Assembly (NCBI GenBank): GCA_003331585.1
Contig: QOPG01000007.1
Coordinates: forward strand, 1-64,000
Length of the DNA stretch: 64,000 nt
Direction: 5' to 3'
Source: Gammaproteobacteria bacterium
Lineage (GTDB): Bacteria; Pseudomonadota; Gammaproteobacteria; Steroidobacterales; Woeseiaceae
How positions within the stretch are numbered: position 1 is the first letter of the stretch; the number at the start of each line of letters is the position of its first letter. Position numbers and translations under genes: made by a program. Below are positions 7,976 through 14,129 of the stretch, piece after piece. The notes below the pieces were generated by a model. It saw only the letters and a program-made list of their open reading frames with translations. It made no database searches and was not told the origin of the DNA.

Positions 7976-8045
7976 TATACTCTCACCTCTTGTTTCTGGA
8001 ATTACGATAATTCTGAACTTTAAATAATTAATAAACACCTTGCTG

Positions 8046-11000
8046 ATGAATCAGAATCTATTAAAAAATAATAACTATTCGAATATACAGTCGATAGGAA
8101 GAGCGTCAGGCCCATCTCTTTCATTATTAATAAATGAGCTATCAAATGATTCAGATGAAACATTAATAGTTATCGCAGAAAACTCCAATCATGCAAATCA
8201 ACTTAAGTGCGAGATAGATTTCTTTAAAAATAAAGACACAAAAGTTGATTTATTTCCTGAATGGGAGACATTACCTTATGATAATTTCTCACCCCAAAAA
8301 GATATAGTTTCAGAGAGAATAAAAATATTATCAGATCAAAGTAGTCTCACAAAAAAAATAAAAATTATAACTCCATACTCTCTTCTGAACAGATTACCGC
8401 CAAAAGATTATCTTCTTAATAATTCCCTTTCATTGAAAGTTAGTCAGAATCTTAAATATGAGCAACTTTTAAAAATACTAATAGAAAAAGGTTACTCAAA
8501 AGTTAATCAGGTTGAGGAATATACTGAATTTTCAAGTAGAGGTTCATTAATTGATATTTTTCCAATGGGGTTTCCATCTCCTGCCAGAATTGAGATTTAT
8601 GATGATAAAATTGAATCCATAAAAATTTTTGATCCTAACACCCAGATATCTTTTAAAAATATCAAAGAAATTAAAATAATTGCTCCAAGAGAATATCCTT
8701 TGGATGCGAATTCAATTGAAGTTTTTCGAGGAAAATTCCGTGAATTATTCGAAGGTCAGCCCTCTAAGTCAAAAATATACCGCGACATCTCATCAGGAAT
8801 ATCGGCTGGAGGTGCTGAATATTTTTTACCATTATTTTTTGAATCAACAATAAACTTCTTAGATTATTTTTCTGATAAATCGAAAATTATTCTTCCTGAC
8901 AACCTCTCTAATCTAATGGAGGAATTATGGAATGAGATTATTGATAGATTTGAGTATTCATGCTCGTCAAACCAACAGCAATTATTATCGCCCGAAAAAG
9001 CATTTTTCGATTACAAAAATTTATTAAAAAAATTAAAAAGCTATAACAATATCTCTTACACCCAAAAATCTCTTACTCAAAATAAAAAAAATATAAATTT
9101 AGATACGAAATCTGTTCCAAGCCTAATGATTAATGTTTTACATAAAGAACCTTCTAAGGAACTTCTTAGATTTATTTCGAACTTTAAAGGAAAAATTCTT
9201 TTCACTGCTGAAAGTATCGGTAAAAGAGAAGCATTAACGGATTTTCTTGAAAATCTTGATATTAATGTCAGGTCAGTCAATTCTTGGTATGATTTTCTGT
9301 CATTAGATATTGGAATTACATCAACAGTAGCACCCTTTAGAGAAAGTGTAATTTTGATAACTCAAAATATTGCGATCATCTCATCGGATCAAATATTTAA
9401 AAAGAAACCTCGTCAACAAAAGAAAATTCTCAAAGAAAGAGACCCAGAGTTAATCATAAAACAATTGACAGATCTCTCGATTGGATCTCCTGTTGTTCAT
9501 ATAGTTTATGGTATCGGCAGATTTCAAGGTTTGATAAATTTAAAATTTGGTGAAGATAGTGAAGAATTTCTTCACCTTGAATATGCCGATAAAGATAAAC
9601 TTTATGTCCCCGTTCACTCGCTTGATCTAATCTCTAGATACACAGGATCATCTCCTGAAAATGCGCCAATTCATAAACTAGGAAGTGATCAATGGAGTCG
9701 TGTAAAGCTAAATGCAATAAAAAAAATAAGAGATGTAGCAGCAGAATTACTTGATATATACGCAAAAAGATCAATTAAAAAAGGATATAAATACATTTGG
9801 ACACAGGGTGATTATGAAAAATTTGAAAACGAATTTCCCTTCCAAACAACTGATGACCAAGAAAATGCAATTAATTCTATTTTAGGAGACTTTTCATCTC
9901 AAAAACCAATGGATAGAGTAATCTGTGGAGATGTTGGTTTTGGGAAAACAGAAGTTGCAATGAGGGCCACATTTATTGCTGCTCTTAACAGTAAGCAAAT
10001 AATAGTATTAGCTCCTACAACATTATTAGCAAATCAGCATGCCGCATCTTTTAAAGATCGATTTAAAAATTGGCCGATAAAGATTGAACTGATCTCTAGA
10101 TTTCAGAGTCAAAAAAAAGTATCTGCCATCAATGATCAAATAAAATCTGGAACTGTTGATATAGTTATCGGCACACACAGGGTTTTATCGCACTTAGATG
10201 TTTTCAAAAACCTTGGACTGGTGATAGTAGATGAAGAGCACCGTTTCGGTGTCAGGCATAAGGAGAAAATAAAAAATCTTAAAAATAATATCGATATTCT
10301 TACTTTAACTGCTACACCTATTCCAAGAACACTAAATATGGCCATGGGTGGCATTCGTGAGCTTTCCCTTATTACCACTCCACCATTAAATCGATTATCA
10401 ATTAAGACATTTGTGAGTATATGGGATGAAAATATCATAAGAGAAGCCTGTCAAAGAGAAATAAAACGTGGGGGTCAAATTTATTTCGTTCACAATAGAG
10501 TTGAAGATATAGAAAACATAAAATTAGCACTAAGTAAAATTGTTCCAGATGCCAAAATAAAGATTGGTCATGGAAAAATGCGTGAAAGCAAACTAGAAGA
10601 AATAATGCTTCAATTTTATAAAAATGATTTTAACATTTTGCTATGCACCACAATCATTGAAAGTGGTTTAGATATCCCAAATGCCAATACAATTATTATA
10701 AATCGAGCAGATAGATTGGGATTAGCGCAACTTCATCAACTAAGAGGTCGGGTTGGAAGATCTCATCATAGAGCCTATGCTTATCTTATATCTCCTCCAA
10801 AAAATTTAATTACAGCTGATGCAAATAAAAGGCTTGAAGCAATATGCAATTTAGAGGATCTTGGTTCAGGATTTATTCTCGCAACACATGATTTAGAAAT
10901 CAGAGGAGCTGGCGAACTTTTGGGTGATGAGCAAAGTGGTCAAATTCAACAGATAGGATTCTCACTTTATACAGATCTATTATCAAAAACAATTGAGGCG

Positions 11001-11474
11001 ATGAAACAACAAGGCAATGTGAATCTCGATGAGCCTTTTGAGGTAGGAGTTGATATTAATCTAAGAGTACCGTGCCTTCTTCCAGCTAACTATGTGCCTG
11101 ACGTACAGACACGTTTGATATTATATAAACGAATATCGATTGCAGATGAAAATGGGCTAAATGATATAAAAATTGAGATGATAGATCGCTTTGGTTTGAT
11201 TCCGAAAGAAACTGAATTTTTATTTAGAATTTCCCTACTCAAAAGATTAGCAAAAAAAATTGGTTTAAAAAAAATTAGTGCAAATAATCAAGGAGGTAGC
11301 ATTCATTTCGCTGATAATGTAAATATTGAAAATTCAACACTTATAAACCTTATAAATAGCAATGATATTTTTCAAATGAAAGGCCCTGTAAACCTTATCA
11401 TCAAAAAACCAACAAATTCACCTGAAGAAAGATTTGCTTTAATTGAAAATGTTCTTAATAGACTACTAATCTAA
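8046..11474 (+). CDS. mfd: Transcription-repair coupling factor Mfd
   Basis: Mfd removes RNA polymerase stalled at DNA lesions and recruits UvrA. I use the ATG at 8046 (1142 residues) rather than the TTG two codons upstream. Domains in order: UvrB-like D1/D2 (about 1-330, with FPEWETLPYD), the RNA polymerase-interacting domain (about 460-540, with GSPVVHIVYGIGRF), and the RecG-like translocase with Walker A GDVGFGKT near 628, DEEH near 728 and motif VI RGRVGRSHHRAYAY near 900. The C-terminal TRCF domain, which regulates UvrA binding, follows. Length is close to the E. coli protein (1148). It lies between valS and the CsiV-like gene. Confidence 0.97.
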   Translation: MNQNLLKNNNYSNIQSIGRASGPSLSLLINELSNDSDETLIVIAENSNHANQLKCEIDFFKNKDTKVDLFPEWETLPYDNFSPQKDIVSERIKILSDQSSLTKKIKIITPYSLLNRLPPKDYLLNNSLSLKVSQNLKYEQLLKILIEKGYSKVNQVEEYTEFSSRGSLIDIFPMGFPSPARIEIYDDKIESIKIFDPNTQISFKNIKEIKIIAPREYPLDANSIEVFRGKFRELFEGQPSKSKIYRDISSGISAGGAEYFLPLFFESTINFLDYFSDKSKIILPDNLSNLMEELWNEIIDRFEYSCSSNQQQLLSPEKAFFDYKNLLKKLKSYNNISYTQKSLTQNKKNINLDTKSVPSLMINVLHKEPSKELLRFISNFKGKILFTAESIGKREALTDFLENLDINVRSVNSWYDFLSLDIGITSTVAPFRESVILITQNIAIISSDQIFKKKPRQQKKILKERDPELIIKQLTDLSIGSPVVHIVYGIGRFQGLINLKFGEDSEEFLHLEYADKDKLYVPVHSLDLISRYTGSSPENAPIHKLGSDQWSRVKLNAIKKIRDVAAELLDIYAKRSIKKGYKYIWTQGDYEKFENEFPFQTTDDQENAINSILGDFSSQKPMDRVICGDVGFGKTEVAMRATFIAALNSKQIIVLAPTTLLANQHAASFKDRFKNWPIKIELISRFQSQKKVSAINDQIKSGTVDIVIGTHRVLSHLDVFKNLGLVIVDEEHRFGVRHKEKIKNLKNNIDILTLTATPIPRTLNMAMGGIRELSLITTPPLNRLSIKTFVSIWDENIIREACQREIKRGGQIYFVHNRVEDIENIKLALSKIVPDAKIKIGHGKMRESKLEEIMLQFYKNDFNILLCTTIIESGLDIPNANTIIINRADRLGLAQLHQLRGRVGRSHHRAYAYLISPPKNLITADANKRLEAICNLEDLGSGFILATHDLEIRGAGELLGDEQSGQIQQIGFSLYTDLLSKTIEAMKQQGNVNLDEPFEVGVDINLRVPCLLPANYVPDVQTRLILYKRISIADENGLNDIKIEMIDRFGLIPKETEFLFRISLLKRLAKKIGLKKISANNQGGSIHFADNVNIENSTLINLINSNDIFQMKGPVNLIIKKPTNSPEERFALIENVLNRLLI

Positions 11475-11546
11475 GTACTGATATTGTTATTTTCATATTT
11501 TTTTATTATTAAACGATTCGATCAGCAAAAAAATGTAACTTACAAT

Positions 11547-12977
11547 ATGATATATATATATTTTTTAAAATTTTTTTTTATATTTATTCCCAGTCTAACC
11601 TTAAATGCAACAGAGAAAATCACTGATTTACTGGTAGCAGACCATGAGATTGAAATCATTCTTTTTGAATACCTTGATGAAAGCTCAGTTGGTAGTGAAT
11701 TATTTACATCAAAAACCCAAGATGAAAAAATTACTGAGGCAACTGACTCAAACTATTTTGTCACTGAGGATATTTCTGAGCAATCAACTTTATCAATAAC
11801 AAATAATTTAGAAATAAATGAAATTCCAATCGAAAAAGAAATATTATTAAAATTAAAAAAAAATAATACATTAAAATTAAGATCTATTTATAACCGTCTA
11901 GAACGTTTGAGTGTTTATAACCCAATAATTTGGGCTGGATGGGAACAAATTTTATTAAATAAAGACAAAACACCAGACATTAAAATCAGAAGGATTAAAA
12001 ACACATTAGGTAACTTTTCTGGTATTTTTCAATTGTATAGAAGCCAAGGTGGAAAAATTAGATTGGCTATTAATATCAATATGAATAAGAAAAATGATTT
12101 GACTGATACTGAAGACTATAACAGTACTCCTAGTAATGAATCACTCAAGTCATCAGTTATCTATTCTATATATGATGATAAAGAGATTAGATATGATGAA
12201 ATAAGATATTTCGATCATCCAAAATTTGGCTTACTGGTTAAAGTCAATAAAAAAGATGAATCAAACATCCTGCCTGACTCAAATTTTGTAAAAATTACGC
12301 CGATGGAGGGTAATGTCTTAGAAAATATCACGAGAACATCGGACAGAGTTTATGTCTCCTCTATTGAAAGAGGTATTGTTGGACTCAGTAAAACAGGTAA
12401 ATATATTTCACTGACACTTAACAGGAATGGCGATTTTAAAATAAATATAAGCGATCAATTAGAAATTGATAGATTAAGCAAAAACGAATTAGGTATTGAT
12501 AGCTTTAAATACACCATTAATGATGGAAATAGAAAATTAAATAAAGAGCTTAGTATTAAAATTACAGGCATCAATGATCCGCCACTTTCTGAAAATAAAT
12601 TTATTATTATAGAGAATAACGACAATCTACCTTATTCATTCTCTGAAGAAGATTTTTTCTTTTATGATGCAGAAAATAAAGAGCTTGATCATATATTAAT
12701 AACAAAAATCTCTGAGGATATGGAGCTTTATGAAGATTATTCTTTCGCTTCCTGGTCTTTACGTGAGGGTATGATCTTGAATAAAAAAGAAATTAATTTT
12801 TTAAGGTACATGCCAATCAACATGAAAGATTACAGGTCATCTTTTTCCTTTTTGGTAAATGATGGAGAGAAATATAGCACCAATGAGTATGAATTTAACT
12901 TCACACATGAGCAAAATAATACAGGAAAGGAAGTTATAGAAAATAAAAATAAAAGTTTTATATATATCTTTGACTGA
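11547..12977 (+). CDS. CsiV-like secreted protein with added cadherin-like domains
   Basis: The ATG at 11547 gives 476 residues starting with a signal peptide (about 1-21, cleavage near LNA-TEK). Residues about 25-230 resemble the peptidoglycan-binding CsiV family: an opening strand (IEIILFEYLD), a WAGWEQILL segment, a GGKIRLAINI strand and the near-diagnostic YFDHPKFGLLVKV near 220. Beyond this, where CsiV proteins normally end, come about 240 more residues. These look like two cadherin/VCBS-type beta domains, with TINDGNRKLNKELSIKI followed by GINDPP near 342 and a second FLVNDGE near 437. The position directly after mfd is also that of csiV in other gammaproteobacteria. The CsiV call is good by context and motif; the fusion is unusual. 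Confidence 0.65.
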   Translation: MIYIYFLKFFFIFIPSLTLNATEKITDLLVADHEIEIILFEYLDESSVGSELFTSKTQDEKITEATDSNYFVTEDISEQSTLSITNNLEINEIPIEKEILLKLKKNNTLKLRSIYNRLERLSVYNPIIWAGWEQILLNKDKTPDIKIRRIKNTLGNFSGIFQLYRSQGGKIRLAININMNKKNDLTDTEDYNSTPSNESLKSSVIYSIYDDKEIRYDEIRYFDHPKFGLLVKVNKKDESNILPDSNFVKITPMEGNVLENITRTSDRVYVSSIERGIVGLSKTGKYISLTLNRNGDFKINISDQLEIDRLSKNELGIDSFKYTINDGNRKLNKELSIKITGINDPPLSENKFIIIENNDNLPYSFSEEDFFFYDAENKELDHILITKISEDMELYEDYSFASWSLREGMILNKKEINFLRYMPINMKDYRSSFSFLVNDGEKYSTNEYEFNFTHEQNNTGKEVIENKNKSFIYIFD

Positions 12978-12985
12978 TCAGAGGG

Positions 12986-14032
12986 TTATATTTCTAATTC
13001 AAATTCCGGATTCAAATTCAGTTTTTCTAAACTGCTTCTAGCTTCAATCCATTTTTCACTTCTAACTAATTCATCATTAGTATATGATTTTTTTCCTACA
13101 ATACTGGCAAGACGTGCCATTGATGTATAATTATTGTAATTTTTAGTCGAATGGATTATCTTTTTTGCATTCTCTCGATCATTACATACTAGCAACATAT
13201 CACATCCAGCTTTTAATGCTTTCATTGCGCACTTAGACGATCCGCCATATTTATCCAAAGCCTTCATCGTCAAATCATCACAGAAAACGACACCATTATA
13301 ATTAATTTGCTTTCTTAGATGATCTTTTATCCAATAATTAGAGATACTTGCAGGGTAATTATCAGCTTCACTAAATATAACATGAGACATCATTATTGCT
13401 GGCATAACTCTTTTTCTCGCTAAACATTCATAGGGATATATATCATCTAATAAAGCACTAAAATCTCTTCGATCAATTGGTAGATCAAGATGAGAATCTG
13501 TTGTTACAGCCCCATGACCAGGAAAATGCTTTGCAACAGGACTCATACCTGAACTTAGCATTCCCTTGGAATATTCATACGATAAACTTTCAACCACAAA
13601 TTTATTTTGATGAAAAGATCTATCCCCGATAACAGAACTCAAACCCCAATCTAAATCGACGCATGGAGAAAAACTTAGATCGATACCAATTGATCTCAAT
13701 TCCGATCCAATTAACCAACCTATTTTTCTAGAAAGATCTAAAGCTTCATCTTTTTTAATATCATATATTCTCCCGATTTGACGCATTGGAGGTATTAAAG
13801 TAAAAGCATCATGAAATCTCTGAACTCTCCCACCTTCATGGTCAACCGCAATTAGAAGTGATGGAGATTTTAATTCACGAATCTCATCCACTAGCTCAGT
13901 GATTTGTTTTAAAGATTCGTAATTTCTACTAAAAAGAATTATCCCTCCAACGTTCGGTTCACATAGAATTTTCTTATCGGCAGAAGTAAGTTCCTTGCCT
14001 TTTATATCAATCATTAAAAACCCACGAGCCAT
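12986..14032 (-). CDS. nagZ: Beta-N-acetylhexosaminidase NagZ
   Basis: Cytoplasmic glycoside hydrolase family 3 enzyme that removes GlcNAc from anhydro-muropeptides during peptidoglycan recycling. I chose the internal ATG at 14032 (MARGFLMIDI), which matches the usual NagZ start, over one 12 codons upstream; the protein is then 348 residues, against 341 in E. coli. The signature KHFPGHG followed by DSH lies near residues 164-178, and the catalytic Asp region (VVFCDDLTMKAL) lies near 250. It is last in the long minus-strand run and ends 8 nt from the convergent csiV-like stop. Confidence 0.94.
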   Translation of the reverse strand: MARGFLMIDIKGKELTSADKKILCEPNVGGIILFSRNYESLKQITELVDEIRELKSPSLLIAVDHEGGRVQRFHDAFTLIPPMRQIGRIYDIKKDEALDLSRKIGWLIGSELRSIGIDLSFSPCVDLDWGLSSVIGDRSFHQNKFVVESLSYEYSKGMLSSGMSPVAKHFPGHGAVTTDSHLDLPIDRRDFSALLDDIYPYECLARKRVMPAIMMSHVIFSEADNYPASISNYWIKDHLRKQINYNGVVFCDDLTMKALDKYGGSSKCAMKALKAGCDMLLVCNDRENAKKIIHSTKNYNNYTSMARLASIVGKKSYTNDELVRSEKWIEARSSLEKLNLNPEFELEI

Positions 14033-14129
14033 AGTTATAAGATTATGTTTGAAAAAAAATTGAATCAAGTTGGGATGTAATTTTGCAAGAAAAATTACCT
14101 AAATATATTATAAATTATTGATTTAAATA

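Follow-up and report, generated by a model that had tools for sequence, protein, structure and literature searches.

The window, a 64,000-nucleotide stretch of Woeseiaceae DNA (contig QOPG01000007.1), encodes a CsiV protein with added C-terminal modules, an architecture that is new and that is conserved within one genus of this family. The interpretation we favour, with moderate confidence, is that CsiV was remodelled in this genus and that the added part acts as a periplasmic beta-sandwich arm, for extension or docking, in the PBP1A-LpoA-CsiV system and not as a surface adhesin. In the CsiV and LpoA literature that we searched, no paper title describes a fusion of CsiV with cadherin-like domains; titles retrieved for CsiV together with cadherin seem to use the same letters in unrelated senses.

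The csiV gene and its added modules

The features of the locus are as follows (coordinates within the window).

8040..11474, + strand: mfd, upstream neighbour with conserved synteny (ORF list)
11484..11546, + strand: possible N-terminal extension from an in-frame TTG, an alternative csiV start (the ORF list gives 11484..12977)
11547..12977, + strand: csiV-cadherin fusion gene, 476 aa from the ATG at 11547
11547..11609, + strand: probable signal peptide, hydrophobic start, ..LTLNA (by eye from the sequence)
11643..12251, + strand: CsiV domain, residues 33-235 (PF10972, E 4.2e-17)
12207..12230, + strand: YFDHPKFG signature, residues 221-228 (alignment A2)
12285..12584, + strand: added domain 1, VCBS-type, about residues 247-346, boundaries approximate (TIGR01965 at residues 281-347)
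12585..12917, + strand: added domain 2, probably a cadherin/CSPG-like beta sandwich, about residues 347-457 (predicted structure, fold comparison)
12986..14068, - strand: convergent downstream neighbour (ORF list), by its sequence putatively nagZ

The reading frame at 11547-12977 is open and intact, without internal stops. Translation of csiV may begin at the TTG at 11484 in place of the ATG at 11547; the n-region that this TTG would provide (IKRF) is similar to the start of two relatives (L007, L008), and the codon sits just past mfd. The product is an authentic CsiV, as the first-pass annotation had supposed from a sequence signature: the PF10972 profile matches residues 33-235 with 63.3 bits against a cut-off of 27.4 and is covered from position 22 to 229 of 230, and YFDHP and the G of the signature are invariant across all 12 rows of alignment A2. 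In the parts of PMC4063736 that deal with Vibrio cholerae, CsiV is described as a periplasmic protein that binds peptidoglycan and LpoA, supports PBP1A and is needed for its function. A CsiV-mCherry fusion is functional according to the same parts of that source, which indicates that an added domain on CsiV can be tolerated. The precise role of CsiV and the partner of the LpoA N-terminal domain are called open questions in PMC4632607 and PMC4111904.

Past the YFDHP signature the window protein continues for 248 residues. For domain 1 the evidence comes from profiles: TIGR01965 (VCBS) scores 25.7 bits on the whole protein and 27.0 bits on the tail alone (cut-off 15.5), and the tandem-95 model (tand_rpt_95, NF012211) matches one stretch with 32-33 bits and an E-value of about 1e-7 to 4e-8, below its whole-protein cut-off of 90 bits, which applies to several repeats. 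Both models match all eight genus tails scanned, with best E-values of 1.1e-8 and 1.9e-8, respectively. The Pfam cadherin-like models (Cadherin_4, Cadherin_5; Big_9) all remained below cut-off on the window tail; the best Cadherin_4 match among the eight genus members has an E-value of 6.3e-6, and Cadherin_3 weakly matches domain 2 in five of the eight (best E 0.0039). A profile built from the eight tails matches a single solved protein, 6xi1, whose chain contains four such repeats (whole-sequence E 5.9e-16).

The full-length structure model (12 rows, mean pLDDT 59.5) is fairly confident for the CsiV core and confident for residues ~340-457, with domain 1 mostly below 50; in a model of the tail alone (8 rows, mean pLDDT 62.9) domain 2 is again confident and domain 1 again poor, so that the fold of domain 1 rests on sequence. 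One continuous unrelated fold, the outcome that had been named as evidence against a fusion, is not supported, as the CsiV part and domain 2 form separate confident blocks. Domain 2, with pLDDT values mostly of 75-96, was assigned by fold comparison, its sequence matches all falling below cut-off. Foldseek matches include cadherin EC pairs, the top matches being fucoidan hydrolases with low TM-scores, and VIA-align, in rows that leave out the CsiV part, gives Z-scores of 7.2-7.4 to the CSPG4 fragment 7ml7 and 7.3 to protocadherin 6oae. PAD N-terminal domains score higher (Z 8.2-8.7), and a cadherin/CSPG-like identity of the modelled domain 2 is therefore likely, not proven. Of the two VCBS/cadherin-type domains proposed at first, one is thus borne out by a profile match above cut-off (TIGR01965), and the other is carried by fold comparison with the Pfam cadherin models below cut-off.

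Distribution of the tail and selection acting on it

The fusion extends over nearly the full length in eight of the nine genomes of the genus; the other seven proteins are 41-46% identical to the window protein, and each of the eight has 248-265 residues past the signature. These are small-genome Woeseiaceae (1.1-2.0 Mb), with which seven named records of the fusion agree; the isolate names of some genus records look like those of single-cell genomes. In the ninth genome (G007, 65% complete) the fusion was not found, and a search with Mfd matched, at 39%, only a portion of a 700-aa frame that we take to be RecG. Since this leaves G007 with no true Mfd match, the csiV locus is probably missing from this assembly.

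In the genomes covered, the full-length tail was not found outside the genus. A search with the window protein matched 98 of 107 genomes of the family; in other genera the matches stop at or before about residue 265, the one exception being a match to the tail alone in a 1945-aa frame. At the level of the order, PF10972 matched in 243 of 296 genomes, and CsiV stops 10-44 residues past YFDHP in 69 of the 70 non-genus genomes whose C-terminus was inspected, which confirms that CsiV usually ends soon after this signature. These 70 comprise 46 represented among the 52 loci L009-L060, 20 whose listed frames were long and four others; an unrelated tail of another kind could occur beyond them. Five named loci read besides these 70 (L068-L072; L068 appears to be the same as genome G018) have tails of 9-32 residues. 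The sole exception among the 70 is G094, whose tail of 162 residues is unrelated by eye and occurs alongside an LpoA frame of 663 aa. In this small-genome member of the Woeseiaceae, a long ELEDYELEDH-type repeated stretch also lies ahead of the CsiV core (G094:C7; L125:746-2116, minus strand).

The tail profile found some match in 15 of the 296 order genomes, at full length in genus members only, and in 47 of 369 genomes of the class, at full length in the window genome only; the remaining matches are partial and mostly lie inside large repeat ORFs of up to 11485 aa. No CsiV signature was seen by regular expression in 29 loci (L137-L165), and no relative was found in viral contigs.

Purifying selection acts on the tail about as strongly as on the CsiV part: Nei-Gojobori omega for five pairs is 0.12-0.24 in the tail and 0.19-0.34 in the CsiV part, the two pairs that include the window protein being rough (dS >1.5) and a sixth pair (L063/L064) giving no omega with a dS of 0. 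Many residues are invariant across the eight tails. With omega well below 1 the tail is constrained and very likely functional.

The window genome contains a single csiV match, with mfd upstream as in most relatives (an mfd match is present in 83 of 95 csiV loci scanned, some of which are cut short). In the window, csiV stops 9 bases short of the convergent nagZ; in named relatives this interval holds other genes. None of these appeared cadherin-like by eye in five named relatives, and we therefore rejected a derivation of the tail from the next gene of the relatives. A possible source is present in two genomes of the genus, G003 and G007, which carry cadherin-like ORFs of 767-1941 aa.

LpoA and PBP1A in the genus and the order

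LpoA was found in 106 of the 107 family genomes. In all nine genus genomes it lacks the N-terminal domain of about 200 residues that other Woeseiaceae keep: the frames measure 416-437 aa, the profile (PF04348) matches only from position 218-219 of 563, and the lipobox cysteine is 38-39 residues away from the C-domain, versus 241-242 in four of six Woeseiaceae comparators (for the other two, L111 and L114, the spacing pattern gave no match; their LpoA frames are 750 and 673 aa). Elsewhere in the family LpoA frames are mostly 630-770 aa with an early start of the match. There are a few partial cases; the match begins at 419 in G085 (195-aa frame) and at 456 in G057 (151-aa frame), both apparently fragments. 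The genus proteins (L102, G000:C1:86059-87102, and L103-L110) are LpoA without the TPR-like domain that keep lipobox and C-domain. The PBP1A ODD domain (PF17092), at which LpoA docks, is present in eight of the nine genus genomes, the one miss being 52% complete (G005). Retention of the ODD domain, loss of the LpoA N-terminal domain and gain of the CsiV tail together suggest that the PBP1A-LpoA-CsiV pathway is present but rebuilt in this genus.

Across the order, the changes in LpoA and CsiV coincide on one branch only, which amounts to one event of each. We rechecked 80 of the 116 order genomes with a weak or no listed LpoA match, and about 28 of these 80 have short LpoA frames with matches from near 198-221; two or more of these frames lie close to the end of a contig. 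Lipobox spacing could be read in five of nine additional LpoA loci (L170, L179 and L181 gave no pattern match, L180 has no lipobox); in these five genomes (G227, G243, G221, G234, G186) the cysteine lies 38-47 residues ahead of the domain, and CsiV has plain tails of 13-30 residues. Because short LpoA occurs with plain CsiV elsewhere, loss of the LpoA N-terminal domain does not need the CsiV tail, and a strict one-to-one rule between the two is rejected. Several families of the order thus have members in which LpoA consists of the C-domain with a short linker. A separate observation concerns family f13, with small genomes of 1.1-1.6 Mb, for which neither LpoA nor CsiV is among the matches listed; this suggests loss of the whole pathway.

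Possible roles of the tail and comparison with known systems

The CsiV C-terminus would have gained a VCBS-type and probably a cadherin/CSPG-like domain in this one small-genome genus. The tail may then act as a stiff periplasmic extension or as a docking surface within the PBP1A-LpoA-CsiV assembly, and it may substitute for the lost N-terminal domain of LpoA by giving reach or a surface for binding; calcium at the joint of the modules could stiffen it. The sections of PMC4111904 on E. coli LpoA describe the N-terminal domain as about 70 Å long and not binding PBP1A, and state that its partner is unknown. A tentative and rather doubtful extension of our favoured reading is a handover, in which the reach or scaffolding once provided by the lost N-terminal domain of LpoA passed to a similarly sized cadherin-like rod acquired by CsiV. 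If so, the activator of PBP1A would now be a two-protein assembly. The genus is a natural variant for asking what the N-terminal domain of LpoA is for, periplasmic reach or scaffolding, and modules of adhesin type are here used on a regulator of wall synthesis.

A less likely but plausible alternative is that the tail serves as an unspecific spacer or stabilizing module acquired from a large cadherin/VCBS adhesin during a rearrangement between csiV and nagZ, CsiV itself being normal and the shortening of LpoA an independent result of streamlining. The partial tail matches, most of them in the large repeat ORFs mentioned above, the other, by eye not cadherin-like, genes between csiV and nagZ in named relatives, the genome sizes of 1.1-2.0 Mb and the origin of short LpoA beside plain CsiV elsewhere are all in line with this scenario. 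However, CsiV-like constraint and many invariant residues in eight tails exceed what a mere spacer would need.

Surface adhesins often contain VCBS and cadherin-like modules. The first-pass annotation had suggested a protein that ties the cell wall to surface or calcium-dependent structures, and partial tail matches in large ORFs would fit a tether between envelope and surface or a Ca2+-dependent adhesin, as would six residues that are invariant in the fusion proteins (N343, D344, D369, D374, E376, D439) and that, by motif logic, we presume could bind Ca2+ as candidate ligands. Yet an adhesin would usually be longer than two modules, csiV has retained its conserved position next to mfd, the genomic evidence leads to the PBP1A-LpoA-CsiV pathway, and CsiV is periplasmic in Vibrio in the parts of PMC4063736 that treat its location; we thus regard a surface role as improbable and unsupported. 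Finally, although the window comes from a draft genome with 81% completeness, a false join of two genes during assembly or gene calling can safely be dismissed, and so can a fusion in decay, as the same junction occurs in eight independent genomes, the other proteins being 41-46% identical to that of the window, with no internal stops and omega well below 1.

Compared with CsiV of V. cholerae (VC1887, PF10972), the window protein shares the hydrophobic N-terminus, the CsiV domain and YFDHP near the end of that domain, and the genome likewise encodes LpoA and PBP1A, but it continues for about 240 further residues, made up of VCBS/cadherin-like modules. LpoA of the genus agrees with E. coli LpoA (PF04348) in lipobox and C-domain in all nine genomes and differs from it in lacking the N-terminal TPR-like domain. 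Domain 1 resembles the repeats of VCBS/tandem-95 adhesins of the BapA/Bap/LapF type (TIGR01965, NF012211) in sequence (GKYISLTLNRNGDF ... TINDGN ... ITGINDPP); in contrast to these giant repeat adhesins, a single VCBS-type module is placed on a CsiV protein of 476 aa. The predicted domain 2 probably resembles CSPG4 and protocadherin repeats (7ml7, 6oae) in fold by VIA-align, while sequence identity to them is low and a Z-score of about 7 can mean a mere common arrangement.
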